From: Desulfuromonadales bacterium
Lineage (GTDB): Bacteria; Desulfobacterota; Desulfuromonadia; Geobacterales; Pseudopelobacteraceae
Assembly (NCBI GenBank): GCA_016650295.1
Contig: JAENWA010000092.1
Coordinates: 1 to 64,000, forward strand
Direction of reading: 5' to 3'
DNA: 64,000 nucleotides
Part shown: positions 28,179-44,682 of the stretch, piece after piece
Numbering within the stretch: position 1 is the first letter of the stretch
How the letters are laid out: each line of letters starts with the position of its first letter
The notes under the pieces: generated by a model
Seen by the model: the letters and a program-made list of their open reading frames with translations, nothing else
Told to the model about the DNA's origin: nothing
Databases searched by the model: none
Translations under genes and position numbers: made by a program

Positions 28179-29609
28179 TTACTTGCCGCCTGAGCCTGAT
28201 TCTTTTCGTTTACGCATGTAGTCAAGGTACTGCTTGCCCTCTTTCAACAGTTTTTTCCGTTCATCAGAATCTATAATCATCCGGCCAATACTGCGTGCAA
28301 TGTACTTGGGGCGGAAATAGAACTTATTGTAGAAATCCTCAACCGAGTTGAATATCTCAGTATTGGTGAGATTCGGATAGTTGATTACACACATTTGGTG
28401 CCCTGTATCATCTATGAACGCATCCGAAGTAATCCAGCCATTTTCCTTGCATAGTGAGTAGAACTCGGTTCCGGGGTATGGAGACGCAAGTGATGCCTGG
28501 ATAGAATTGAGGTCCATACCTATTGCGAATTTTATGGTTTCGCGTATGGTCTCATTGGTCTCGCCCGGCAATCCCATGATGAAGGCACCATGAATAGAGA
28601 GTCCCAGTTTCTTGCAGTCCTTGGCAAACTGGATGGCCTGTTCCTTGGTGACACCCTTTTTAATGTTTTTCAGTATTTGCGCATTTCCACTCTCAAAGCC
28701 CACTACTACGTGTCGTAATCCAGCCGCACGCATTACCTTGAGAGTCTCAAAATCACAGTTGGCACGGGCGTTGATTGTCCATGAAATACCCAGAGGTTTT
28801 ATCAGTTGTGCAACTTCCTTGGCGTGCTGCCTGTTAGCGGTGAATGTGTCATCGTCAAAAGAGAGCTCCCGCATCTCGGGAATATTTTCAGTAATCCATT
28901 TGACCTCTTCGAAGACGTTTTGGGGACTGCGAGTACGCATACGTTGTCCGGAAAATGTTTGTGGCCAGAGACAGTAAATGCACTTTGAAGGGCAGCCGCG
29001 ACTGGAGTAGATTGAAACGTACGGGCTTTTAAAGTGGGGAATAATGTATTCCTTAATGGGCAAATCACGCCTGTAGATTTGAGACACAAATGGAAGTGCA
29101 TCCAGGTCCTCGATCATTGGTCTATCAGCGGTGTGAATAATCTTTCCGTCCTGAATAAAGCTGATGCCGTCAACTTTGTTCCATTCTCGTCCTTCGCACA
29201 GCTCTTTTGTCGAGTAATCAAACTCTCCACGGCAGACAATATCAATGGCATCTTTGCCTGCACGAAGCGATTCCTCCGGGAGAATCGTTACATGCGGGCC
29301 GGTCAGAACGGTGACGATGCCCGGTTTTGCCTCTTTGATGCGTCGGGCAGTCTCAATGTCTATCATGAGAGTAGGGGTAGAAGTGTACATCACTACCATG
29401 TCGAATTCTTTGGCAATGGTAATGCAATCTTCAAGGGTGAATTTCTGTACAGGAGCGTCAACGACTCGGCTTCCCTCAATCATTCCGGCAGGGAAACAGA
29501 GCCAGGTTGGATACCAGAACGAGGTAACTTCACGGGATGCCTGGTAACGTGCGCCTGCCCCGCCATCAAAATCCTCAAAAGACGGGGGGTTTAAAAAAAG
29601 TGGTTTCAT
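28179..29609 (-). CDS. hpnJ: Hopanoid-associated radical SAM protein HpnJ
   Basis: 476-aa B12-binding-type radical SAM protein. N-terminal LFLNPPSFEDFDGGAGARYQ and VTSFWYPTWL match HpnJ closely. The radical-SAM motif is SRGCPSKCIYCLWP. HpnJ proteins act in making the cyclitol-ether head group of composite hopanoids. No other hpn gene is in the window, so it stands apart from a hopanoid cluster. It lies between a broken and an intact nhaD. The family assignment is from remembered sequence signatures. Confidence 0.82.
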   Translation of the reverse strand: MKPLFLNPPSFEDFDGGAGARYQASREVTSFWYPTWLCFPAGMIEGSRVVDAPVQKFTLEDCITIAKEFDMVVMYTSTPTLMIDIETARRIKEAKPGIVTVLTGPHVTILPEESLRAGKDAIDIVCRGEFDYSTKELCEGREWNKVDGISFIQDGKIIHTADRPMIEDLDALPFVSQIYRRDLPIKEYIIPHFKSPYVSIYSSRGCPSKCIYCLWPQTFSGQRMRTRSPQNVFEEVKWITENIPEMRELSFDDDTFTANRQHAKEVAQLIKPLGISWTINARANCDFETLKVMRAAGLRHVVVGFESGNAQILKNIKKGVTKEQAIQFAKDCKKLGLSIHGAFIMGLPGETNETIRETIKFAIGMDLNSIQASLASPYPGTEFYSLCKENGWITSDAFIDDTGHQMCVINYPNLTNTEIFNSVEDFYNKFYFRPKYIARSIGRMIIDSDERKKLLKEGKQYLDYMRKRKESGSGGK

Positions 29610-30109: not shown

Positions 30110-31393
30110 TCAATGAAATAACTTGTATTGCACGATATAGGCTGCAATCCCGCCAAAGTAACCCACCAGTGCCAGTCCGCTGATCCGCTTAACATACCAG
30201 AAGAAGTGGATCTTTTCCAGCCCCATGGCAGCCACCCCTGCTGCTGATCCGATGATCAGGATCGAACCTCCCGTTCCGGCACAGTAGGCCATGAACTCCC
30301 AAAGGAAACTGTCGGGCGGGTACTGGGCCAGGCTGTACATGCCCATGGAGGCGGCCACCAGCGGCACGTTGTCCACAATGGCGCTCACTATCCCGATGAT
30401 GGTAACGATCAGGTCCTGGCGTCCAACGGTCTGGCCCAGCCATGTGGCAAGGTTGCCGAGAAGGTGAGTATGTTCAAGGATTGCCACTGCCAGAAGGATG
30501 CCGATAAAGAAGACGATTGAACCCATGTCGATGCGGGTCAGGGCGTGAACCAGGGTCAGGTGCTCTTTTTCCTCGTCCGCCTTGTTGCGATGAACAAGGT
30601 TACCTGCCAGCCAGAGGATGCCGAGGCCGAACAGTATCCCCATGAAGGGGGGCAGATGGGTCACAGTCTTAAATATCGGCACACATACCAGAATCCCAAG
30701 TCCCATGAAGAACATCAGGTTGCGCTCGAAGGTGGTGGTCTGCAGCAGGCCGCTGTCTTCCGCCTGGGGAGGTGAGACGACCTCTCGTCCCTTGAGCATC
30801 CAGCTGACAACTAGCAGCGGTACGATCAGGTTGACCACCGAGGCCAGGAAAACCCCCTTCATAATAGCAAGTGTGGTGATCTGTCCTCCGATCCAAAGCA
30901 TGGTGGTGGTAACGTCGCCGATAGGGGTCCATGCACCTCCAGCATTGGCAGCTATCACAATCATGCCCGCGAAGAAAAGGCGGTCGTCCTGCTTGTCCAA
31001 AAGTTTCTTCATCAACGAGATCATCACGATGGTGGTGGTCAGGTTGTCGAGGATGGCACTGAGGAAGAATGTCACAAAGCCGACCAGCCACATCAGGGTG
31101 GAGAGTTTGGTAGTCCGGATGCGCGAGGTGATAACCTCGAAACCGTTGTGGGCATCAACTACTTCGACGATGGTCATGGCGCCCATGAGGAAAAAGACAA
31201 TCTGGGCAGTGGAGGCCAAAGATTCGTTGAGTTGATGACCGACCAGAGCGTGATCGCCGGTTGAGAGTGCATAGACTGTCCAGAGCAGTCCGGCTCCTAA
31301 AAGGGCAGAAGCGGATTTATTGATACCGATTGGGTGCTCTAGCGCGATTGCGGCATAGGCGATGATAAATATGATAACAAGAATGGTAAGCAT
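30110..31393 (-). CDS. nhaD: Na+/H+ antiporter NhaD
   Basis: 427-aa arsenite-permease-fold antiporter with about 11-12 helices. N-terminal ALEHPIGINKSASALLGAGL, LDNLTTTIVMISLMKKLL, NAGGAWTPIGDVTTTMLWIG and SAIVDNVPLVAASMGMY are NhaD signatures. It exchanges Na+ or Li+ for protons. Base composition is GC-rich like the core genes. A decayed copy lies at 27747-28165. Confidence 0.93.
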   Translation of the reverse strand: MLTILVIIFIIAYAAIALEHPIGINKSASALLGAGLLWTVYALSTGDHALVGHQLNESLASTAQIVFFLMGAMTIVEVVDAHNGFEVITSRIRTTKLSTLMWLVGFVTFFLSAILDNLTTTIVMISLMKKLLDKQDDRLFFAGMIVIAANAGGAWTPIGDVTTTMLWIGGQITTLAIMKGVFLASVVNLIVPLLVVSWMLKGREVVSPPQAEDSGLLQTTTFERNLMFFMGLGILVCVPIFKTVTHLPPFMGILFGLGILWLAGNLVHRNKADEEKEHLTLVHALTRIDMGSIVFFIGILLAVAILEHTHLLGNLATWLGQTVGRQDLIVTIIGIVSAIVDNVPLVAASMGMYSLAQYPPDSFLWEFMAYCAGTGGSILIIGSAAGVAAMGLEKIHFFWYVKRISGLALVGYFGGIAAYIVQYKLFH

Positions 31394-31844: not shown

Positions 31845-33224
31845 TCAGTACCCCAGCAGATGCGGCAGCCAGAGTGAAATGATCGGGACGTAGGTAATCA
31901 GCAGCATGAATCCCAGCATGGCGATCAGCCACGGCAGCACCGCCATGGTCAGCTCCGAAATACCCATCTTGGTGATACCGCTGGCCACGTACAGGTTCAG
32001 GCCCACCGGCGGGTGGCACATGCCGACTTCCATGTTGACGGTCATCAGGATACCCAGGTGGACCGGATCGATGCCCAGTTTCATGGCCACCGGGAACAGG
32101 ATCGGCGCCAGGATCAGGATGATGGAGGAAGGTTCCATCACGTTGCCGGCCAAGAGCAGCAGGATGTTGGTCACTGCCAGGAAGGCTATCACGCCCAGGT
32201 TGTGACCGATGATCCAGTCAGCCATGATCTGGGGGATCTGCTCAGAGGTCATCAGGTACGAGAACAGCACAGCGTTGGTGATGATATACAGCAGCATGGA
32301 CGACATGTTGGCCGAATCCCGTAAAACCTTGGGGATATTCCTGAGAGGCATGTCCTTGTAGACAAACACGGCCACAACGAAGGCATAAACCGCGCTCATG
32401 GCGGCTGCCTCAGTGGGTGTGAACAAGCCGCTGTAGATCCCGCCCAGTACGATGACGATCAACAACAGACCCCAGATGCTCTCTTTGAAGGCCTTCAGCC
32501 GTTCCATCGCGGTGGCCTTGGGCAGGCGCGGGTAGTTGAACTTGCGGGCACGATACCAGGCTACCGATCCAAGCAGGGTTGCCAGCATCAGGCCGGGGAC
32601 CACGCCGGCCATGAACAGGGCTCCGACGGACGTGTTGGTGGCAACCGCATAGATAACCATCACGATTGAAGGCGGAATCAGGATGCCCAGCGAACCGGAG
32701 GTCGCGATAACACCGGCGCCGAAGTTCTTGGGAAATCCGGCCTTGACCATGGCCGGCAGCAGGATGGAACCGATAGCCACCACGGTGGCCGGGCTGGAGC
32801 CGGAGACAGCGGCAAACAGGGCGCAGGCCATGACTCCGGCCAGGCCCAGGCCGCCATGCCAGTGTCCCACCATGGAGGTGGCAAAGCGGATCATCCGTTT
32901 GGCCACCCCGCCGTGGGTCAGGAAGTTACCGGCCAGGATGAAGAACGGAATCGCCATGATCTCGAACTTCTCTATTCCGGTGAACAACTTCATAGCGACT
33001 GTTTCCACAGGGACATTCGACATGAAAAACAGGAAGGTCAGAACGGTCAGACCCAGTGAGATGGAGATCGGCATGCCGGTCAGCATCAGGCCGATCAGGA
33101 GGGCAAACACGATGCCTGCATTACCGAATGATGCGATGGCCGCCAAAGCTATCAAAAGGCCGACCACCCAGGTTGCCGCCCGTTTTGGTGTCATAAGCTC
33201 CATGGTTGCTGTCGATGCGCTCAT
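31845..33224 (-). CDS. dctM: TRAP transporter large permease DctM
   Basis: 459-aa membrane protein of ~12-13 helices that couples sodium to solute import in tripartite ATP-independent transporters. Family segments include GMPISISLGLTVLTFLF, AIPFFILAGNFLTHGGVAKRMIRFA, VSGSSPATVVAIGSILLPAM and VNMEVGMCHPPVGLNLYV near the end. It overlaps dctQ by 4 bases. Together with DctP and DctQ it likely imports C4-dicarboxylates or another organic acid. Confidence 0.94.
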   Translation of the reverse strand: MSASTATMELMTPKRAATWVVGLLIALAAIASFGNAGIVFALLIGLMLTGMPISISLGLTVLTFLFFMSNVPVETVAMKLFTGIEKFEIMAIPFFILAGNFLTHGGVAKRMIRFATSMVGHWHGGLGLAGVMACALFAAVSGSSPATVVAIGSILLPAMVKAGFPKNFGAGVIATSGSLGILIPPSIVMVIYAVATNTSVGALFMAGVVPGLMLATLLGSVAWYRARKFNYPRLPKATAMERLKAFKESIWGLLLIVIVLGGIYSGLFTPTEAAAMSAVYAFVVAVFVYKDMPLRNIPKVLRDSANMSSMLLYIITNAVLFSYLMTSEQIPQIMADWIIGHNLGVIAFLAVTNILLLLAGNVMEPSSIILILAPILFPVAMKLGIDPVHLGILMTVNMEVGMCHPPVGLNLYVASGITKMGISELTMAVLPWLIAMLGFMLLITYVPIISLWLPHLLGY

Positions 33225-33892
33225 TTGACACCTCCTTGCCGTGCAGTATCATCAAATTTGTGTTCTTCATACTCCTCAAGCGCCTCGGTTGCATTCACCG
33301 GCTCATCATCAAGACCATCAACGTGGGAGTGGTCATGGTGGGGCAGTTCACCGGTATGGGCAAAGTTCCAGGCCACCTGCATAAACCGGAAACACATCAG
33401 GGACGAGCCCAGGGGGATGGCCAGGTAAATCACCCAGGTGGGCCATTCCAGGTCAGGGGTGATCGGGCCTTCGAACAGGTCTCCCAACGCTATTCCGAAC
33501 CTGTTGTACACGGCGTAATGCATGCCGTTTTCCCAGACAAAACGCGCCCCCAGCGTGGCAATGATGCCGGTAAAGAGAGCACCGCTCGAAAGGCCGAGCA
33601 GCACGGAGGTCTTGCGCCATGCGGCCGGCAGCCGGTTGATCAGGACATCCACCCCCACGTGAATACCGGTGCGGACACCGTAGGCAGCGCCGAACTTGGC
33701 CATCCAGACAAACATGTAGATGCAGAGCTCCTGTGCCCAGCTCATGTTGATGGTCAGCAGCCAGTCCTGCAGGGCGCGGAACGGAAGGCCAGACGCGTAA
33801 CGGTGCACAACGGCCACAAAAATGACCAGGGTTGCCGCACCAATGAGGAAGGTAATGATCCATTCCTCCAGGTGGTCGAGGTATTTCATCAT
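33221..33892 (-). CDS. dctQ: TRAP transporter small permease DctQ
   Basis: 223-aa four-helix subunit (helices within ~15-175) with the family's TFLIGAATLVIFVAVVHRYASG start. It carries an extra C-terminal ~45-residue tail beginning GELPHHDHSHVDGLDDEP and rich in His, Asp and Glu, which most DctQ proteins lack. The tail could bind metal or be a regulatory appendage (inference). It overlaps dctM by 4 bases and is separated from dctP by a hairpin terminator. Confidence 0.92.
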   Translation of the reverse strand: MMKYLDHLEEWIITFLIGAATLVIFVAVVHRYASGLPFRALQDWLLTINMSWAQELCIYMFVWMAKFGAAYGVRTGIHVGVDVLINRLPAAWRKTSVLLGLSSGALFTGIIATLGARFVWENGMHYAVYNRFGIALGDLFEGPITPDLEWPTWVIYLAIPLGSSLMCFRFMQVAWNFAHTGELPHHDHSHVDGLDDEPVNATEALEEYEEHKFDDTARQGGVK

Positions 33893-34025: not shown

Positions 34026-35036
34026 TCAGGGCTTGTAGCCGGTAGCATCATAGACGTCTTTCATGACCTCGGCGCCGATCCGGCCCATGTTGTCCTTGTG
34101 GGTTTTGTCCATGGCCTTTCTCCAGGCCGCACGTTCCTGAGGGGTCAGTTCGATGAGCTGTGACCGGCCGGACTTCTTGACCGCTGCCAGTGCTTCGTCA
34201 TTGTCCTTCTTGGCAACACTGTTGGCGAAGATCGTGGCATCCTTCATGGCGCCATCGAGGATGGTACGGATGTCAGCCGGCAGACCCATCCAGAATTTCT
34301 TGTTAACCAGAACGGCATAGCCCAGATAGCCGTGGTTGGTGAGGGTTACGTACTTCTGAACTTCATGCATCTTCTGGGTATAGAGGTTTGAGGGCGGGTT
34401 TTCAGTGCCGTCAACAACGCCGGTCTGCAGGGCCTGATAGACCTCGGAGAAGGCCAGTACCTGTGGGATGGCGCCCACGGAACGCATCTGGGAATCCAGG
34501 ACCTTGGAGGACTGTATCCGCATCTTGAGACCGCGCATGTCTTCCGGCTTGTGAATCGGCTTGTTGGCGCTCATCACCTTGAAGCCGTTATCCCAGTAAC
34601 CCAGACCCATGATACCCTTGGCTTCCAACTTATGGAGCAGTTTTGCCCCGAGCGGGCCTTGGGTAACCTTATGCAGTTCCGCATAATCATCAAAGATAAA
34701 CGGCAGGTCAAATACCTCAAATTCCTTTACCCCCAGCGGAGCAAATTTGGCCAGGGACGGGGCCAGCATCTGCACAGAACCCATCTGCAGGGCCTCCATC
34801 TCTTCCTTGTCCTTGAAGAGCTGGCTGTTGGGATAGACTTCAACTTTTACACGCCCCTTGGTGCGCTCTTCAGCAAGTTTTTTGAAGTAGTTGGCTGCCT
34901 GCCCTTTGGGCGTTTCGTTGGCAACCACGTGACTGAACTTGATGATGATCGGCGCGGGGGCGGCCAGGGCGGTCATCGGCAGGGCCAGGGCCACTGCTCC
35001 CAGGATCAGACTTTTAAAACATCCATTCAGTTTCAT
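34026..35036 (-). CDS. dctP: TRAP transporter solute-binding protein DctP
   Basis: 336-aa periplasmic binding protein. A signal peptide (LILGAVALALPMTALA) ends near residue 25. Family segments are IIIKFSHVVANETPKGQAANYF, RVKVEVYPNSQLFKDKEEMEALQMGSVQML and MRIQSSKVLDSQMRSVGAIPQ, whose Arg (LKMRIQ) binds the ligand carboxylate. QALQTGVVDGTENPPSN is the signature. The exact solute is not readable; a dicarboxylate is likely. GGAGG lies before the ATG. Expressed from the sigma-54 promoter at 35119. Confidence 0.94.
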   Translation of the reverse strand: MKLNGCFKSLILGAVALALPMTALAAPAPIIIKFSHVVANETPKGQAANYFKKLAEERTKGRVKVEVYPNSQLFKDKEEMEALQMGSVQMLAPSLAKFAPLGVKEFEVFDLPFIFDDYAELHKVTQGPLGAKLLHKLEAKGIMGLGYWDNGFKVMSANKPIHKPEDMRGLKMRIQSSKVLDSQMRSVGAIPQVLAFSEVYQALQTGVVDGTENPPSNLYTQKMHEVQKYVTLTNHGYLGYAVLVNKKFWMGLPADIRTILDGAMKDATIFANSVAKKDNDEALAAVKKSGRSQLIELTPQERAAWRKAMDKTHKDNMGRIGAEVMKDVYDATGYKP

Positions 35037-35118: not shown

Positions 35119-35134
35119 TGCAAGTCTGTTGCCA
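35119..35134 (-). promoter_or_regulatory. Sigma-54 promoter of dctPQM
   Basis: On the minus strand TGGCAACAGACTTGCA matches the -24/-12 consensus exactly in GG, GC and spacing. It lies ~83 nt before the dctP start. Confidence 0.8.
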
Positions 35135-35234
35135 GAAAATTATGGGCAGGTAACATGCTGATATACTGTCAATATACGTTATGTATACGAAGAAAAATGC
35201 CGGATTTTCTTGAAGAGTGGCTGAAACACGCCAG

Positions 35235-35262
35235 CTGCAATGGCGGAAAACCGCCATTGCAG
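35235..35262. promoter_or_regulatory. 12-bp inverted repeat, candidate activator site for dctPQM
   Basis: CTGCAATGGCGG-AAAA-CCGCCATTGCAG is a perfect dyad ~100-140 bp upstream of the sigma-54 promoter, the usual distance for an NtrC-family enhancer. It also lies 37 nt past the methyltransferase stop, but no T-run follows, so a terminator is less likely. Confidence 0.5.
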
Positions 35263-35298: not shown

Positions 35299-36150
35299 TC
35301 AGAGAGGGGTAGTAAAAAAACGCTGGTTCATTTCTTCCAGGCCCAGCAACTTTAGTACTTCCTGAAGTCGTTCGGCAGGGCGGCGGCGGGGAAGGTCCTT
35401 GTAGCTGGCGACAATCAGCTCGTTTTTCATGGAGTGCTCCCACCCGACCAGTTCGGTCACGTTGACCTGGTAGCCGTGCGCCTCCAGTTGCAGGCAGCGC
35501 AGCACATTGGTGACATGACTGCCGAACTCGCGGGTATGCAGCGGGTGCCGCCAGATCTCGGTCATGCTGCTGCGGGCCAGTGCCGCACCCTTGTTTTTTC
35601 GCAGCACGGCCGCTACCTCGGCCTGGCAGCAGGGTACCAGCACGATGAAACGGGCCTGTTTTTTCAGGGCAAAACTGATAGCATCGTCGGTGGCGGTATC
35701 GCAGGCATGCAGGGCCGTTACCACGTCAACTGTTTCCGGGAGAACATCGGACTGTATGGATTCAGCCACGGACAGTTTCAGGAAGGTCATGCCGGGGAAT
35801 GCCAGTCTCCGGGCCAGGTCACGTGATTTTTGAACCAGTTCATCACGGGTTTCTATGCCGTAAATGCGAGACCCGTTGTCCTGCCCCTTGAAATATAGAT
35901 CGTACAGGATGAAACCCAGGTAAGACTTTCCGGCGCCGTGATCTACCAGGGTCATGTCGGGGTGATCCTGCTGGACCTCTTTGAGCAGCGGCTCGATGAA
36001 TTGAAACAGGTGGTAGACCTGTTTCAGTTTGCGGCGGCTGTCCTGGTTCATTTTTCCGTCGCGGGTCAGGATGTGCAATTCCTTTAATAGCTCAATTGAT
36101 TGTCCCGGTCGTATGTCGTTCTTTTCCGTCATTCTTCTGTTATCTCCCAT
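35299..36150 (-). CDS. SAM-dependent methyltransferase (Methyltransf_32-like)
   Basis: 283-aa protein. Residues ~55-200 are a Rossmann methyltransferase: motif I TLVDHGAGKSYLGF, then RIYGIETRDELV, and VVTALHACDTATDDA with FIVLVPCCQ. These features match the Methyltransf_32 family related to eukaryotic METTL25-type proteins; the substrate is unknown, possibly RNA. An internal ATG at 36132 is an alternative start. It stands alone between dctP and the NtrC-type regulator. Confidence 0.75.
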   Translation of the reverse strand: MGDNRRMTEKNDIRPGQSIELLKELHILTRDGKMNQDSRRKLKQVYHLFQFIEPLLKEVQQDHPDMTLVDHGAGKSYLGFILYDLYFKGQDNGSRIYGIETRDELVQKSRDLARRLAFPGMTFLKLSVAESIQSDVLPETVDVVTALHACDTATDDAISFALKKQARFIVLVPCCQAEVAAVLRKNKGAALARSSMTEIWRHPLHTREFGSHVTNVLRCLQLEAHGYQVNVTELVGWEHSMKNELIVASYKDLPRRRPAERLQEVLKLLGLEEMNQRFFTTPL

Positions 36151-36224: not shown

Positions 36225-37604
36225 CTACAACCCATACTTATCCATTTTGTAGCGTAGGGTGCCGCGCGGGATTTTCAGCATATTGGCGGTCTGAAGAACA
36301 TTGCCGCGGGTCTTTTCCAGGGCCTGGCCGATGAGCGCTTTTTCGAATTCCATAACGGCTTCATTCAGCCCCGTATCAACGGCAAGAGAAGGGGGGAGGG
36401 AGCTCACGGCTGGTGACAGGGCGCTGCCAGGTGGAATCCCGAGGATCTCCTGCGGAAGATGTTCGGGGAGCAGTTCCGGGCCGTGCCTCATGATACAGAT
36501 CCGCTCGATGACGTTTCTGAGCTCACGAATGTTTCCGGGCCATTTATACAGTTTCATCAGATCGGACGCCCCGGTCGAGACCCCCCGGAAATCCCGGCCG
36601 AAGGCTCGACTGAAGCTGTCCAGGAAATAGGCCGCCAGAGCGGGAATGTCATCGGTACGTTCACGGAGCGGCGGTATGTGGATAGGAAATACATTGATCC
36701 GGTAATAAAGGTCTTCCCGGAAGGTTCCGCCGGCGATCCTGTCCTGCAGGTTGCGGTTGGTGGCCGCGATAACCCGTACATCGATGGCGATATCCTTGAG
36801 GCCGCCAACACGGCGGATGGTGCGCTCCTGCAGGACCCTCAGCAGTTTGGCCTGCATGGTCAGATCCATCTCTCCGATCTCGTCCAGAAAGATCGTGCCG
36901 AGTTGCGCCTCTTCAAACAGGCCCGGTTTGCGGCTGACGGCATTGGTAAAGGCGCCTTTCTCATGGCCGAACAGTTCGCTTTCCAGCAGGCTGGCCGGCA
37001 GGGATGCGCAGTTTATGCCGACGAAAGCGGCTTCCTTGCGGTCGGACAGGTCATGGATGGCGCGGGCAACCAGCTCCTTGCCGGTCCCGGATTCGCCGGT
37101 GACCAGTACGGTCGATGGAATTTTGGCGATTTCGCGCACCTGGGTGATCACCTCGCCGAAGGCCCTGCTGGCGCCAATCATCGGGAAGCGGCCTGGCAGA
37201 ACGCCGTCGGCCCGTTTCAGGCTGCGCACCTCGCGCTTGAGGGTCTGGGTCTGAAGCGCCAGTTTAACAATTACCCGCAAGGCATCAGCCTTGAAAGGTT
37301 TTTTCATATAGTGATAGGCGCCCAGTTTGAGCGCATCCACGGCGCTTTCAACCGAGCCGTAGCCGGTGATGATGATTACCAGCAGGTCCGGGTCGATCTC
37401 CTTGAGAGTCTTGAGTACATCGATGCCGTTTTCCGTACCAAGGTTGAGATCGAGCAGGGCCAGATCAATGTCGTTTGCCAGCACGATCTCCCGTGCCTCG
37501 TTCCCCGATGCGGCCGAACAGACCTGATAGCCGTCGTCGCCCAGGATCCGTTCAACGTTTTCGCAGATAAAGCTTTCGTCATCAATGATAAGGATCTTTT
37601 CCAT
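36225..37604 (-). CDS. Sigma-54-dependent NtrC-family response regulator
   Basis: 459-aa activator. The N-terminal receiver starts MEKILIIDDE and has the phospho-acceptor in LALLDLNLG. The central AAA+ domain has Walker A GESGTGKE and the sigma-54-contacting loop KGAFTNA. The C-terminal Fis-type helix-turn-helix is GNVLQTANMLKIPRGTLRYK. It activates sigma-54 promoters. The TRAP operon promoter 1 kb away on the same strand is the obvious candidate target. Start at 37604 fits the receiver; the 6 codons upstream are extra. Confidence 0.93.
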   Translation of the reverse strand: MEKILIIDDESFICENVERILGDDGYQVCSAASGNEAREIVLANDIDLALLDLNLGTENGIDVLKTLKEIDPDLLVIIITGYGSVESAVDALKLGAYHYMKKPFKADALRVIVKLALQTQTLKREVRSLKRADGVLPGRFPMIGASRAFGEVITQVREIAKIPSTVLVTGESGTGKELVARAIHDLSDRKEAAFVGINCASLPASLLESELFGHEKGAFTNAVSRKPGLFEEAQLGTIFLDEIGEMDLTMQAKLLRVLQERTIRRVGGLKDIAIDVRVIAATNRNLQDRIAGGTFREDLYYRINVFPIHIPPLRERTDDIPALAAYFLDSFSRAFGRDFRGVSTGASDLMKLYKWPGNIRELRNVIERICIMRHGPELLPEHLPQEILGIPPGSALSPAVSSLPPSLAVDTGLNEAVMEFEKALIGQALEKTRGNVLQTANMLKIPRGTLRYKMDKYGL

Positions 37605-37843
37605 GGCGATGGATACTAGCAAATTATTGCGGTGTTGTCATATGGTTCATTTCGGTGTCCGGATACGTACTCCAAATATTTATTGGAGGATGTGCCGTCA
37701 GATGCAGAAGCATCTTCGAGACAGGCATTCAATTGCGGAGGCTTTGGCTTGCATAACGTATACAGATAGTGTTATACAGTATCTCTTGTGTTATTTGCGT
37801 GAGTATTCGATACGTTACCCCATGGCAGACACTATGAAGAACA

Positions 37844-40015
37844 ATGAGGTTCATCGTGGTCACACCAGCCCGGTTTTTAGAAAGTTTCAAACGTTCCCTG
37901 GTTCATGCGGTATTGATTGTCCTTGTCATGCTGATCTTTACAACGGCTTTGACTGCGTATCTTAAAAAGCGTCTGGACAGCCGCACGGAAGCGGAGATGG
38001 CGCAGCAGGTCTCGCTGCTTGTCAATACAATGTCGTCATACCACGCGGCGCTGGCCGACAGTGCCGATAAGATGTCTGCGGTATTCTGCACGTATTTCCC
38101 CGGCAAATTCAGGCTGGACAGTTCAAAGAACGTTACCGTTGGAAACCGGCAGACCCCCCTCCTTCTGAATGGCTCAACCCCCCTCAACCTGAACAACGGG
38201 ATTACCGACCGGTTTACCGAAGTAACCAAAGTGGCTGCATCGATTTTTGTGCGTTCAGGAGATGATTTTGTACGTATTGCAACATCAGTGAATAAAGAGG
38301 ATGGTTCCCGCGCCATTGGTACTATGCTTGAGAGGGAACATCCCGCCTACAGCGGGCTGTTGAAAGGCGAGGCTTTCGTTGGCAAGGCCACGCTGTTCAA
38401 CAAGGATTACATGACCAAATATGTGCCGGTCAAGGATAACCAGGGCAACGTCATCGCTGTCCTTTTTGTAGGTCTTGATTTTACCGACAGCCTCAAGGTG
38501 CTCAAGGACAAGCTCCGCGCCATTACCATCGGCAAGAGCGGCTATTTTTACGCACTTGAAGCGCATCAAGGCAACAATCGGGGCAGGATGCAGATTCATC
38601 CGTTCATAGAGGGAACCAATATCAGTGATGTGAAGGATGTATCCGGTCGTGAATTCATCCGGGAAATACTTACACATAAGGAAGGAGTCATTCGCTATAC
38701 TTGGTTAAACAAGGAATCGGGTGAAGCGATTCCCCGCGAAAAACTGGTTGTCTATCGCTACCTCAAGGAGTGGGACTGGATCATAGCAGCCGGAGCCCCG
38801 CTGAGTGAACTGAACAGCGAATCCCGAACGATAATGGGAGCCATGGCGGGTGCAACCGCCCTGGTTTCAATTATTCTCGTACTGCTGTCAGTTTCCATGG
38901 TTCACATGGAGCGGAAGTTGACTTCCGAACTTCAGGCGAGTGAAAAACGATACCGGGAGTTGTTTCATTCGATGCAGAACGGTTTTGCACTGCATGAGAT
39001 AATTTGCGATGAACAGGACAACCCCAGCGATTACCGCTTTCTCGAAGTCAACCCGGCCTTTGAAACAATGACCGGTTTGAAAGCCGGGGATATAGTCGGA
39101 AAAACCGTACGGGAGGTACTGCCGGACATTGAAGACAGCTGGATAAAAACTTATGGCCAGGTGGCGCTGATCGGCGAATCACGGCATATTGAAAAATACT
39201 CTGCGGAGTTTCAGCGCTACTATGAGGTCAATGCCTATTCTTCACAGACGGGACGCTTTGCCACCATCATACAGGATGTAACCCAACGCAAACTGGCAGA
39301 GGAGGCCCTGCGACAAAAAAATGCGGAGATGGAACGGTTCACCTACACAGTCTCCCATGACATGAAAACCCCGTTGGTAACGATCAAAACCTTTATCGGG
39401 TTTCTCGAACAGGATCTTGCAGCAGGTGATCCCGATCGGGTGAAACAGGATTTTGACTTCATACAGGGTGCAGCCACAAAAATGGAAGGACTGCTTAATG
39501 AATTGCTGGAGTTGTCGCGCGTCGGTCATGTTCTTAACTCGAAGGTCACAGTCTGCTTTCAGGATTTGATTGATGATGCTCTCGCGGCCGCAGCCGGAAT
39601 CATAGCCAGCAGGGGGGTACGAATCAGCAGGAGTGCGGAATCCATTCTTCTCTCCGGTGACCGCCCCAGGCTGGGCGAGGTCTGGCAGAACCTGATCGAA
39701 AACGCTGTCAAGTACATGGGAGACCAGCCTGATCCGCAGATCGAGATAGGTGTTGAGGCACGGGGCGTTGAACGGGTGTTCTTCGTCAGGGATAACGGGA
39801 TGGGGGTTGATCCTCGTTACACCGAAAAAATATTCGGGTTGTTTGAGAAACTTGACCCGACCAGCGAGGGGAGCGGTCTGGGGCTGGCGTTGGTGAAGCG
39901 GATTGTCGAGGTGCATGGCGGCCGGACCTGGGTCGATTCGGAAGGCATCGGTAGGGGGAGCACGTTCTGCTTTACGTTTGGCGTAGAAACCCGGCAGAGC
40001 TTGACTGATGTGTAG
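37844..40015 (+). CDS. Cache-PAS sensor histidine kinase
   Basis: 723-aa kinase. A membrane helix near residues 20-40, a periplasmic Cache-type sensor (to ~325, with TKYVPVKDNQGNVIAVLFVGLDF and IGKSGYFYALEA), and a second helix (~335-355) are followed by a PAS domain (~375-490). Next come HisKA (phospho-His in YTVSHDMKTPL) and HATPase (NLIENAVKYMG, DNGMGVD, GSGLGLALVKRI). It has no adjacent response regulator on its strand and lies between the regulator at 36225 and the kinase at 40069, both on the minus strand. Ligand unknown. Confidence 0.9.
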   Translation: MRFIVVTPARFLESFKRSLVHAVLIVLVMLIFTTALTAYLKKRLDSRTEAEMAQQVSLLVNTMSSYHAALADSADKMSAVFCTYFPGKFRLDSSKNVTVGNRQTPLLLNGSTPLNLNNGITDRFTEVTKVAASIFVRSGDDFVRIATSVNKEDGSRAIGTMLEREHPAYSGLLKGEAFVGKATLFNKDYMTKYVPVKDNQGNVIAVLFVGLDFTDSLKVLKDKLRAITIGKSGYFYALEAHQGNNRGRMQIHPFIEGTNISDVKDVSGREFIREILTHKEGVIRYTWLNKESGEAIPREKLVVYRYLKEWDWIIAAGAPLSELNSESRTIMGAMAGATALVSIILVLLSVSMVHMERKLTSELQASEKRYRELFHSMQNGFALHEIICDEQDNPSDYRFLEVNPAFETMTGLKAGDIVGKTVREVLPDIEDSWIKTYGQVALIGESRHIEKYSAEFQRYYEVNAYSSQTGRFATIIQDVTQRKLAEEALRQKNAEMERFTYTVSHDMKTPLVTIKTFIGFLEQDLAAGDPDRVKQDFDFIQGAATKMEGLLNELLELSRVGHVLNSKVTVCFQDLIDDALAAAAGIIASRGVRISRSAESILLSGDRPRLGEVWQNLIENAVKYMGDQPDPQIEIGVEARGVERVFFVRDNGMGVDPRYTEKIFGLFEKLDPTSEGSGLGLALVKRIVEVHGGRTWVDSEGIGRGSTFCFTFGVETRQSLTDV

Positions 40016-40068: not shown

Positions 40069-42564
40069 TTACGAATCAGGAATATTGACCGGAAGCTCAA
40101 TGATGAAGGTCGTTCCAGCTTCCCGTGAACTTTCAACACGGATCGTGCCGCGGTGCTCCTCGATGATCCGCTGGGTGATGGAGAGCCCCAGTCCGGTGCC
40201 GGCGCCCTTGCGGGTGAAAAAGGGTTCAAAGATCAGCGGCAGGTCCTCCGCGCTGATGCCCGGTCCGTTGTCGGATATGGTCATGGTAACATGGCCGGTG
40301 GATTGCATGGTGCCCACTTGAATCGTACCGCCGTCCGGCAGGACCTCCAGGGCGTTTCTGGTGATGTTCAGCAGCGCCTGCTTGATTTTCTCCGGATCAA
40401 AGCGGAAAGGAGAAAGCTCACCGTTTTCCTGCTGTATGCTCACCTTCTGCCGTTCGCATTGTCTCCGCATGAGCAGGACCGTGTCATTGACCACCGTATT
40501 CAGGTCACTCATTCTGAAGTCGGCACGGGCCGGAGAAGAATAGTTCAACAGCGCACTGATCAGACGTTCGACCCGCTCGATCTCGGCCAGCGCCTTCTTG
40601 ATCATGTTCCGGTCGTTTGCCGCCAGGGCGGCGTTGTCATGCAGGTCGTCCAGCAACAGCGAAATGCCGGTCAGCGGGTTGCGCACCTCGTGGGCGATGC
40701 CGGCCGAGAGCTTGCCCAGCGATGCCAGCCGGTCCAGACGCATCATCTCTTCGCGCAGCTTTTCCTTTTCCGTCTCGTTGCGGATGGTCACGGTCAATCC
40801 GTGTTCGGCGTCCTTTCCGATCGGGAAAAATCCGACTTCAAAGTGGGTCATGCCGCCGGGACGATCAACCTGTATTGGCTGGCGACCATAGCCGCTACAG
40901 GTGGCGAGGGCTTGATTGGTGCGCTCTTCCATCTCCTCCCATCCCCGGAAAACATCACGAAAATGCATGTCGATGCTGGTCCGGCTTCCCAGAAAGTGCC
41001 GGCCGGTAGCATTGATGGAGGTGAGCAGTCCGTCGGGCGAGAAGGTGACGATGGCGCTGGAGATACTTTCCAGAATACTTTCCTTGAAATTGCGCTCGTC
41101 AAGAATTTCCAACCGTGAACGGCGCAGTTCATCCAGGGTCGAGAGCAGGCTGGTCTTGCGGATCTCCAGTTCGTTTGACATGATGTTGAAGGTGTCGGCC
41201 AGTTCACCCAGTTCGTCGGTGGAAGAAACGCTGACCTGGCTGCTGGTGTCGCCGTCGGCCAGACGGCGGGCCCCTATGATCAACTGCTGCAACGGACGGG
41301 TGATGCCGCGCGACAGCACCCAGGCCGAGAAACCGGCCAGCAGCGCGGTGGCCAGGATGATCATGGCGCTCAGGGTTCGATGGCCGCGCAGTTCCCGGTT
41401 TATCAGGCGGCTTCCCTTGCGGGCGGCATCGTGAAACTGGTCAACCTGAAAGCCGATGGTCACGCCGCCGAAGATGCCGTATCTGCTGTAATCGCCGGTA
41501 TCATAGGGAATCGGAGCGAAGGCCATGATCTTTTTGGCGCCGCCGACGTTGGTGATATCCACATAACCGATCTTGTGCTGTCTGACCTGGGAGGCGACTT
41601 TGGGATAATTGAGGTGGATGAAACCGGCCTGATCGAGATTGAAGGGAATCAGCCCGGCATCGATGTCGGCCTGGCTGGAGTGCTCGCTGTAGGCGGGCAC
41701 CGGTCTGCCGCTGCGATCCAGGCCGCGGATATCCCAATATTTTGGATGGGTGATGATCCACCCCTCGTCATCAAACAGGAAGGCGTAGTTGCCGCTTTTG
41801 TAGGAGGGGAAGATCGTGGAAAAGTTGCGCCCCGGATCGATATGCTGGGTGAATTCCATCAGGTGGCGATGATCGAGGGATACGACCACCAAGCCGTTGA
41901 AAGAACCATTAGAATCAAACTGGGGAGTTCCAAAGCGGATCACACCGTCGTAGGTTGATTCATTAACAGCGCTTTCCGGGTCGGATGCCCCGGCCAGTTG
42001 CTCATGCTTTGATACATGGAAACCGGTCAGATGGGAAACATAGATCTCACCCTGTCTCAATTTCTTGATTCGGCTGAAATATTCCTCGTTCTTGAATTCT
42101 GTACCGGCTGGAGTGGAGACATCCCTCAATTCGGATGCCCTCAGAAAACGTCCATAACGGATAACAAGCAGTTCCTTGCCGTGTTTATCGATTTTGGCAA
42201 TCGAACGATAGAGCGGAACCAGTTCACGGATTTCTTCTGTTGCTCCGAATCTTTTCCAGACCTCGCTGTGGCGGGTGGCATAAAAATTGATCAGAGATTG
42301 CCTGTCCAGAGTGGTACGGGCTAGAAACAGAAGATCGCCTTCGCACTGGTGCAGGAAGTCTGATATCGTCTCGGCCACATTCTGGGCACGCATCTGCAGT
42401 GTTTCGGAGGCCTGGATGTCGGACGTATCGGCAATCTCGGCCGTCAGGCGGCTGTTGACGGATTCGAGATTGGAGAGCAGGATCAGTGAAGACAGCAGCA
42501 GCGGCAGCAGCGACAGCAGAAGGGTTACAGCCATGATCTTTTTGAAAAGGGTCAGTCGGGGCAT
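40069..42564 (-). CDS. dCache-HAMP-PAS sensor histidine kinase
   Basis: 831-aa NtrB/DctB-class kinase. An N-terminal helix (VTLLLSLLPLLLSSLILL), a large periplasmic sensor (~35-400), and a second helix (LATALLAGFSAWVL) are followed by HAMP (ISRPL-type: GITRPLQQLIIGARRLADGDTS), PAS, HisKA (GIAHEVRNPL) and HATPase (DNGPGIS, GTGLGLSI). The ATG at 42564 has GGAG 6 nt upstream and fits better than the longer frame. It is the probable partner of the NtrC-type regulator on the same strand, 2.5 kb downstream. Confidence 0.92.
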   Translation of the reverse strand: MPRLTLFKKIMAVTLLLSLLPLLLSSLILLSNLESVNSRLTAEIADTSDIQASETLQMRAQNVAETISDFLHQCEGDLLFLARTTLDRQSLINFYATRHSEVWKRFGATEEIRELVPLYRSIAKIDKHGKELLVIRYGRFLRASELRDVSTPAGTEFKNEEYFSRIKKLRQGEIYVSHLTGFHVSKHEQLAGASDPESAVNESTYDGVIRFGTPQFDSNGSFNGLVVVSLDHRHLMEFTQHIDPGRNFSTIFPSYKSGNYAFLFDDEGWIITHPKYWDIRGLDRSGRPVPAYSEHSSQADIDAGLIPFNLDQAGFIHLNYPKVASQVRQHKIGYVDITNVGGAKKIMAFAPIPYDTGDYSRYGIFGGVTIGFQVDQFHDAARKGSRLINRELRGHRTLSAMIILATALLAGFSAWVLSRGITRPLQQLIIGARRLADGDTSSQVSVSSTDELGELADTFNIMSNELEIRKTSLLSTLDELRRSRLEILDERNFKESILESISSAIVTFSPDGLLTSINATGRHFLGSRTSIDMHFRDVFRGWEEMEERTNQALATCSGYGRQPIQVDRPGGMTHFEVGFFPIGKDAEHGLTVTIRNETEKEKLREEMMRLDRLASLGKLSAGIAHEVRNPLTGISLLLDDLHDNAALAANDRNMIKKALAEIERVERLISALLNYSSPARADFRMSDLNTVVNDTVLLMRRQCERQKVSIQQENGELSPFRFDPEKIKQALLNITRNALEVLPDGGTIQVGTMQSTGHVTMTISDNGPGISAEDLPLIFEPFFTRKGAGTGLGLSITQRIIEEHRGTIRVESSREAGTTFIIELPVNIPDS

Positions 42565-42660
42565 GACGGCTCCGCATACGTTCAAAGCTGATTGTATTTG
42601 AGTGAGTACAATGATACACGTACACAAATCAAGGGAATTCGGGGTGAAGGCTGGATGAGA

Positions 42661-42774
<114 letters not shown>

Positions 42775-42841
42775 GGCGCGCAGGGTTTTCCTGACAGTCT
42801 TCAGCCTTCAACCTTCAACCTGACAAAAAGGCAGGTGTTTG

Positions 42842-44682
42842 ATGGGCTATAAAAATCTACAGGAATGTGTTGCTGATCTGGAGCGCAGGAAGATGCTGCT
42901 GCGGATTTCGGCTCCGCTCAATCCTCGGCTGGAGATCGGGGCCGTGCAGCGGCGCGTCTACCAGGCCGGCGGACCGGCTCTGCTCTTCACCAACCCGCTC
43001 AACTGCGGCTTTCCGCTCCTGGGCAACCTGTTCGGCACCCTGGAACGGACCCTTTTCATCTTCCGCGATACGCTGGAGGATATCCGCCGCCTGGTGGATA
43101 TCAAGATCAACCCCTTTTCACTGATCAAACATCCGCTGGATGCCGTCAAGGCCCCCTTTGCAGCCCTGCATCTGCTGCCGAAAACCGTTACCGACGCACC
43201 GGTGCTGGAATGCCGCACCACGCTCTCCCGGCTGCCGCAGATCGTCTCCTGGCCGATGGACGGCGGCGCCTTTGTCACGCTGCCGCAGGTCTATACCGAA
43301 GATCCGTCCAAACCGGGCTATGCCAGGTCCAACCTGGGGATGTACCGGGTGCAGATCTCAGGAAACAATTACGAGTCGGACCGGCAGGCCGGACTGCATT
43401 ATCAGATCCATCGCGGCATCGGAGCCCATCATGCCGAGGCCATCCGGCGCGGCGACCTGCTGCGGGTGAATGTCTTTGTCGGCGGTGCCCCCTCCATGAG
43501 TATGGCGGCGGTCATGCCGCTGCCGGAAGGGATGCCGGAGCTTTCCTTTGCCGGTCTGCTGGGGGGGCAGCGCATCCCCATGACACATATGCCGGGGGGG
43601 CTGCCGGTCTACAGCGAGGCCGATTTCTGCATCTGCGGTGTGGTCGATCCGAAACAGACCCTGCCGGAGGGACCCTTCGGCGACCACCTCGGCTATTACA
43701 GTCTTGCCCACGACTTCCCCTTTATCCAGGTCGAGGCGGTCTATCACCGCAAGGACGCCATCTTCCCCTTTACCACCGTGGGGCGGCCGCCCCAAGAGGA
43801 CACCAGTTTCGGGGCATTTATCCACGAACTGACCGGGCCGCTGATCCCGACGGTCGTGGCGGGTGTCCGGGAGGTCCACGCCGTGGATGCGGCCGGTGTC
43901 CATCCGCTGCTGCTGGCCATCGCCAGCGAGCGCTACGTCCCCTATGCAGCCCAGCGCCAGCCTCAGGAACTCCTGACGGTGGCCAACGCCATCCTCGGCC
44001 AGGGACAGCTGTCACTGGCCAAGTATCTCTTCATCGCCGCTCACGAGGACGCCCCCGAACTGCATACCCACGACATCGCCGCCTTTCTGGGACATATGCT
44101 GGAGCGGGCCGACTGGCGTAGCGGCCTGCACTTCCAGACAGCCACCACCATCGATACCCTCGATTACAGCGGCAGCGGCCTGAACGAAGGCTCCAAGGTC
44201 GTCATCGCCGCCGCCGGTCCGGTCCGTACCCGCTTGGCAACGGAGTCTCCAGCCGGTCTGGAGTTCCGCCCGGTTTCGGTGGAGCTGACATCTGTCTGCC
44301 GGGCATCCTGGCGATCCAGGGGCCTCAGTCGGGGCAGGGCAGGGGCGAATGCGACCTGCTGATCGATGAATTCTGCCGCTTTTACGGGGAGCGCGACAGC
44401 TTCACCGACTTCCCGCTGATCGTGATCTGCGACGACAGCAGCTTCACGGCCGCAACCCTGAACAACTTCCTGTGGGTGACTTTCACTCGCTCCAATCCGG
44501 CCACGGATATCTACGGCATCCAGGCTGAGTCGCGCGGCCGGCACTGGGGCTGTCGCGGTCCGCTGGTGATCGATGCCCGGATCAAGCCCTTCCATGCACC
44601 GCCGTTGATTGATGACCCGGCGCTGGAACGCAAGATCGACGAGCTGGGGGCCAAGGGCGGGCCGCTGGCGGGGATAATATAA
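42842..44682 (+). pseudogene. ubiD: UbiD-family decarboxylase with a single-base frameshift
   Basis: Reads as a full-length UbiD (613 aa if corrected), the prenyl-FMN-dependent decarboxylase family. The first ~478 codons run from MGYKNLQECV through GPFGDHLGYY and ERYVPYA. At 44271-44273 the reading leaves the family frame. Inserting one G to make CCCGGG restores PGFGGADICLPGILAIQGPQ, after which the correct frame runs on to LAGII-stop at 44682. As given, translation stops at 44362. This could be a true recent mutation or a base-calling error in a short G-run. AGGTG precedes the ATG. Confidence 0.85.

Follow-up and report, generated by a model that had tools for sequence, protein, structure and literature searches.

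NtrC-type activators of sigma-54 promoters work from palindromic sites ~80–150 bp upstream, usually more than one, and an IHF site between enhancer and promoter is common in such modules, if not obligatory. The closest described system is rhizobial DctB/DctD, where, in the accessible portion of the record, the DctD site is TGTGCGgaaatCCGCACA, occurs as tandem sites and has dctA as its target (PMC11077940). In Geobacter bemidjiensis, dctPQM, dctA and dcuB have been described and kinase-regulator pairs adjoin dcuB and dctA; the available text mentions neither an enhancer nor a sigma-54 promoter for dctPQM, nor a Liv-type ABC counterpart (PMC2996986). The RpoN regulon of G. sulfurreducens includes a sigma-54 promoter for a different dicarboxylate carrier, dcuB, for which the text available gives no activator site (PMC2725144). 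The enhancer module reported here is not described in the accessible parts of PMC4641369, PMC12316311 or PMC2725144, and five spellings of its motif were not found in the open-licence literature searched.

We analysed a window of 64,000 nucleotides from a Desulfuromonadales bacterium, positions 1 to 64,000 of contig JAENWA010000092.1. We put at about 0.86 the probability that an inverted repeat upstream of dctPQM forms the distal half of a sigma-54 enhancer with two sites, through which a kinase and an NtrC-type regulator activate these genes, with binding, phosphorylation, signal, IHF action and transcription as the predicted parts of that reading. The rhizobial system likewise pairs a kinase with an NtrC-type regulator, places two palindromes ahead of a sigma-54 promoter and targets a C4-dicarboxylate transporter, and its palindromes are of similar size with the same GCGG-N4-CCGC core. 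However, the outer half-site is TGGC here and TGTGC there, the sites are 22–24 bp apart here and 33 bp apart in a Rhizobium gallicum record, and the targets are TRAP, Liv-type ABC or DctA transporters here and dctA in rhizobia. The sites here, TGGC-N8-GCCA, resemble the rhizobial site in the core only. The regulator shares 36% identity with the R. gallicum DctD candidate and ~44% with E. coli AtoC, and its best NCBIfam match is AtoC, under that model's cut-off, which does not identify it as a DctD ortholog. Because the regulator is nearer to AtoC and the site differs outside the core, we do not class the module as DctD.

Results

The minus strand of the locus reads kinase, regulator, methyltransferase, enhancer, IHF-like site, promoter, dctP, dctQ, dctM and NhaD. 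The solute-binding protein gene dctP (34026-35036, minus strand) matches TIGR00787 with 339 bits (cut-off 175), and the nearest solved chain to its product is 9dsy, itself named DctP (E 1.4e-105). Domain searches assign the small permease dctQ (33221-33892, minus strand) and the 459-aa large permease dctM (31845-33224, minus strand), and the three genes are consecutive on one strand, as in a DctPQM TRAP transporter. Downstream of dctM lies a gene for an NhaD-type Na+/H+ antiporter (30110-31393, minus strand), also found beside dctPQM in some relatives. A gene for the hopanoid-associated radical SAM protein HpnJ (782.9 bits, cut-off 577.6) is at 28179-29609 on the minus strand. The Methyltransf_32 gene (Pfam; 35299-36150, minus strand), which goes unmentioned in an earlier note on this DNA, sits between the regulator and the enhancer and dctP, and we judge it a bystander.

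The earlier note placed an NtrC-family regulator and a kinase nearby on the same strand, and both are there. The regulator (36225-37604, minus strand) is 459 aa from its ATG and carries the receiver, AAA+ and Fis-type HTH domains of a sigma-54-dependent response regulator (Pfam Response_reg, Sigma54_activat and HTH_8), by which it is told apart from DctM, of equal length by coincidence. Its sigma-54 contact loop, GAFTGA in the family, reads GAFTNA. In the related regulators (L041-L075) the loop reads GAFTDA, GSFTSA, GSFTGA, GAYTGA and others, with the T kept in 35/35, and the recognition-helix stretch (I/V)PRGTLRY is likewise present in all 35. The presumed cognate histidine kinase (40069-42627, minus strand) has dCache-like, HAMP, HisKA and HATPase domains by domain search, the Cache sensor scoring E 3.8e-9 and 36.9 bits with dCache_1, below the 45-bit cut-off. 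In 30 of 35 related loci the regulator is preceded, on its own strand, by a homolog of this kinase, and from this adjacency we infer that the two form a pair. A second, Cache/PAS histidine kinase gene (37844-40015, plus strand) stands between them; it appears in no gene order of the 35 related loci, from which weaker overlapping matches had been filtered, and looks like an insertion peculiar to the window's lineage. Divergent from the cognate kinase gene is a UbiD-type decarboxylase gene (42839-44362, plus strand), which accompanies the kinase in many relatives.

The 12-bp inverted repeat reported upstream of dctP, CTGCAATGGCGG-AAAA-CCGCCATTGCAG, is exact at 35235-35262 (no strand assigned). 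It is the sole match in the window at up to three mismatches (0 expected from 100 shuffles), and the genome-wide search that the earlier note had recommended returns a single copy in 4.07 Mb, at its own locus. The core of the dyad is a palindrome of the form TGGC-N8-GCCA (35241-35256; TGGCGGAAAACCGCCA on the plus strand), which we take as the distal enhancer site. A second TGGC-N8-GCCA palindrome, the proximal site (35218-35233; TGGCTGAAACACGCCA on the plus strand), is absent from the earlier note and forms with the first a conserved pair that is unique within its genome. The two centres are 23 bp apart, about two helical turns, and their distances upstream of the start that the -12 element implies, ~118 and ~141 bp, are typical of an NtrC-type sigma-54 module.

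Between the dyad and dctP is the sigma-54 (-24/-12) promoter that had been proposed there, TGGCAACAGACTTGCA (35119-35134, minus strand), which shows GG-N10-GC spacing and is separated from the dctP ATG at 35036 by 82 nt. Taken alone, the match is no commoner than chance would give (34 in the window at up to two mismatches, 40 expected), and we count it as real because of its place and its conservation: a sigma-54-type element of at least 9/12 letters is found upstream of 27/27 dctP genes. Its -24 box has an A at -21 (TGGCAA), a letter with a frequency of 0.02 among 54 modules, nearly all the others having C or T, and given this rarity the window's promoter may be weaker. An IHF-like site, TATCAGCATGTTA, occupies 35151-35163 on the minus strand (-55 to -43), at the same offset as in many relatives; the call uses what we take to be the IHF consensus. 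The strict pattern is present in 13/54 modules, the window's included, and looser letters at the fixed offset in more. We considered the AT-rich TATACGTTATGTATA (35173-35187) as an activator site and rejected it: its genome count (6+2) equals that of the control (2+6), and it is missing from the relatives' upstream regions. This TATACGTTATG-like element lies between enhancer and promoter and has a two-mismatch copy at 37748-37762, between regulator and kinase, with others elsewhere in the genome, including one on G000 contig 95 (36934-36948) upstream of an ORF resembling a B12-binding radical SAM protein.

We compared the locus across 57 related genomes, the window's own and 56 others, whose kinship means that the tallies are not independent. 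A regulator ortholog, defined by at least 60% identity, is present in 36/56 of the others (60-86% identity); for the remaining 20, none of the matches listed reaches 60%. The window's genes were mapped on 35 of these 36 regulator loci, that of G055 being excluded where the gene runs into the contig end. At regulator loci there are 24 dctP upstream regions (the window's and 23 more), with an exact pair in 21, a pair with one mismatch in one, a single site in one and none in one. Three additional dctP genes, either distant from the regulator or outside the initial set of loci (G002, G003 and G026), all have the pair, and in G002 and G026 it accompanies dctP although the regulator sits on another contig. 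In all, an exact pair of TGGC-N8-GCCA sites 22–24 bp apart precedes a sigma-54 promoter at 24 of the 27 dctP genes, counting the window's. The exceptions are G018, with the mismatch, and the first dctP copies in G004 and G034, which have no intact pair; dctP or dctPQM is doubled beside the regulator in these two (L063 and L072) and in G035 (L060).

Conservation at orthologous dctP was a check set by the earlier note, and it did not refute the proposal: these comparisons bear out the dyad as an activator element as regards its core, which is conserved at those genes and tracks the regulator ortholog, but not as regards its full length. The conserved part is the inner 16 bp, the outer 6 bp are specific to this genome in both arms, and the conserved unit is two 16-bp palindromes, TGGC-N8-GCCA, with centres 22–24 bp apart. 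Among 36 sequences (the window and 35 loci) there are 26 exact pairs, spaced by 22 (7), 23 (10) or 24 bp (9) and by no other distance in the range scanned, 18–60, and a correctly oriented sigma-54 promoter accompanies each of them.

Scanning the 57 genomes whole, with a gap of 4–10, gave 35 places, 32 of them at spacings of 22–24 and three at others (G004, G018 and G034); a reversed-pattern control gave four. By position, the 32 places lie upstream of DctP (24), LivK (7) and DctA (1) genes. The pair is present in 31/37 genomes with the regulator ortholog and in 0/20 without it, or in 30/37 when G018, whose sole exact pair is off target, is left out (Fisher p about 2e-10 and 7e-10, values that ignore kinship). 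The seven regulator genomes without an exact on-target pair comprise four with mismatch pairs (G007, G014, G048 and G018) and three in which no pair was found: G001 and G055 (regulator at a contig end in both) and G024 (66% complete). The kinase and other linked genes likewise co-occur with the regulator.

We searched the genome_contigs collection, which covers about 85,000 species genomes, for the full module (two sites, 69–99 bp, promoter) and obtained 72 stretches, 54 of them titled as Geobacter relatives. These 54 precede DctP (41), LivK (8) or DctA (2) genes or are cut off by the locus end (3), so the gene is DctP, LivK-type or DctA in all 51 cases where it is in view. The other 18 matches are scattered: two precede Pseudomonas dctA, 15 have none of the three genes and one is cut off. 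Across 54 distinct modules, the window's included, the spacing is 22 (14), 23 (26) or 24 bp (14), and the distance from the proximal-site centre to the -12 base falls into clusters at 93.5–97.5 (17), 103.5–108.5 (34) and 118.5–120.5 (3). The steps of 11–13 bp between clusters would suit one helical turn, as looping would need, in genomes that are related and so not independent. In Geobacter sp. UBA6802 (L186) the proximal site is widened to a palindrome with ~17-bp arms, and this extension is lineage-specific, as at the distal site in the window.

At eight regulator loci without dctP, the enhancer and promoter precede the gene for a LivK-like binding protein, followed by what we take, by its sequence, to be a LivH-like permease; one site is mismatched at three of the eight. 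Geobacter sp. AOG1 (G040) has one pair before dctA and another before LivK, its DctA matching the NCBIfam C4-dicarboxylate transporter DctA with 709 bits (cut-off 513). DctP (at least 74% identity) is present in 24/57 genomes and LivK (at least 69%) in 20/57, with an overlap of 0 (hypergeometric 5e-7, uncorrected); two weaker matches, to LivK in G051 (41%) and to DctP in G035 (35%), were left uncounted. The exchange of DctP and LivK occurs inside genera (g8, g12 and g13). Where the regulator is present, the pair and promoter lie upstream of LivK in 10/10 genomes (seven exact, three with one mismatch), whereas in the 10 LivK genomes without the regulator, which serve as a strong negative control, the pair is found in none and a good promoter match in three.

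Discussion

The sites, their spacing and position, their conservation and their co-occurrence with the regulator and transporter genes are established by these comparisons, and the pair, the promoter, the regulator and the conservation together argue for a DctBD-like enhancer module. In such a module the kinase would probably sense external dicarboxylate and phosphorylate the regulator, whose dimers would occupy both TGGC-N8-GCCA sites. IHF would bend the DNA at -55 to -43, and a regulator oligomer would contact RNA polymerase-sigma54 at 35119-35134 and set off dctPQM transcription. The signal and the action of IHF are assigned here by analogy with the family.

The protein that uses the pair could be another one, such as a repressor or some other NtrC-type regulator. 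Counting itself, the regulator has 26 matches in the genome at E ≤1e-60, and binding by the 459-aa protein is a prediction. However, pairs are absent from all 20 genomes without the regulator ortholog, though other NtrC-type regulators are present there, and LivK genes in genomes lacking it have no pair, so we regard another user of the sites as improbable. Somewhat less probable again is that the dyad acts at the 3' end of the methyltransferase gene, which stops 36 nt from it, as a terminator or a stabilising hairpin. When folded it does give a stem of 12 bp (z about -3.2 for the minus strand), and in three relatives the symmetry of the upstream site is 4 bp longer, in differing sequences. 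Yet no T-run follows the dyad, it is not listed in a terminator scan, and the outer stem pairs are mostly non-complementary in 53 modules. The 16-bp core also persists in relatives with no methyltransferase gene found ahead of it (L057-L059) and in front of other transporter genes, and for this reason, with the missing T-run, we dropped the hairpin. That the dyad is a dispersed repeat, or a palindrome that arose by chance with no tie to dctP, as its lineage-specific outer arms might suggest, is already refuted by conservation, since it is single-copy in the genome and its core and partner site are conserved in place and spacing.

Taking the dyad, then, as the distal site of an enhancer for the regulator, the unexpected part is that TRAP, ABC and DctA transporters seem to have been repeatedly exchanged under one regulator. 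We favour the reading that a single class of substrate is taken up under the regulator's control by a transporter that can be swapped, and DctP and DctA point to C4-dicarboxylates as that class. The same pair before other transporter types suggests the same job for them. We give even odds to the fuller proposal, in which DctPQM, a Liv-type ABC importer and DctA replaced one another repeatedly beneath a single conserved enhancer and regulator whose task stayed unchanged, and the Liv-type importer would bring in C4-dicarboxylates. To our knowledge, C4-dicarboxylates are not a recognized substrate class of the Liv-type ABC family. In LivJ an acidic residue holds the amino group of the ligand. Where aligned amino-acid binders have Glu or Asp (GGEG, GGDG), 19/20 LivK proteins have Ala, and 19/20 have a Lys after a PAAA or PVAS stretch (a P-[AV]-A-[AS]-K loop); the sole exception in each count is a sequence unmatched by the search pattern. 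We also sought the LivK substrate in the nearest solved structure and set this aside: chain 8wch is named merely ‘Probable Leu/Ile/Val-binding protein’, and it is not named in the open-licence literature searched.

Geobacter relatives are the bacteria behind iron reduction and microbial fuel cells, and TGGC-N8-GCCA, repeated at 22–24 bp, is a DNA code by which their dicarboxylate-uptake genes can be located. For a Liv-type importer that would be annotated as transporting branched-chain amino acids, it supplies a substrate that can be tested. In the genomes compared here, TRAP and ABC systems under the one switch exclude each other completely, which also makes a clean natural case of a transporter being replaced while its regulation is conserved. 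The whole module lies upstream of dctA in two Pseudomonas species (L148 and L204), and since these promoters have the same TGGCGG-type sites, the code may be common to a wider group. One P. aeruginosa dctA carries TGGCGGACTCCCGCCA and GGGCGGTAATCCGCCA, TGGCGG-type sites that in this record differ from those of the Geobacter relatives in their 42-bp spacing and in a mismatch in one of them.
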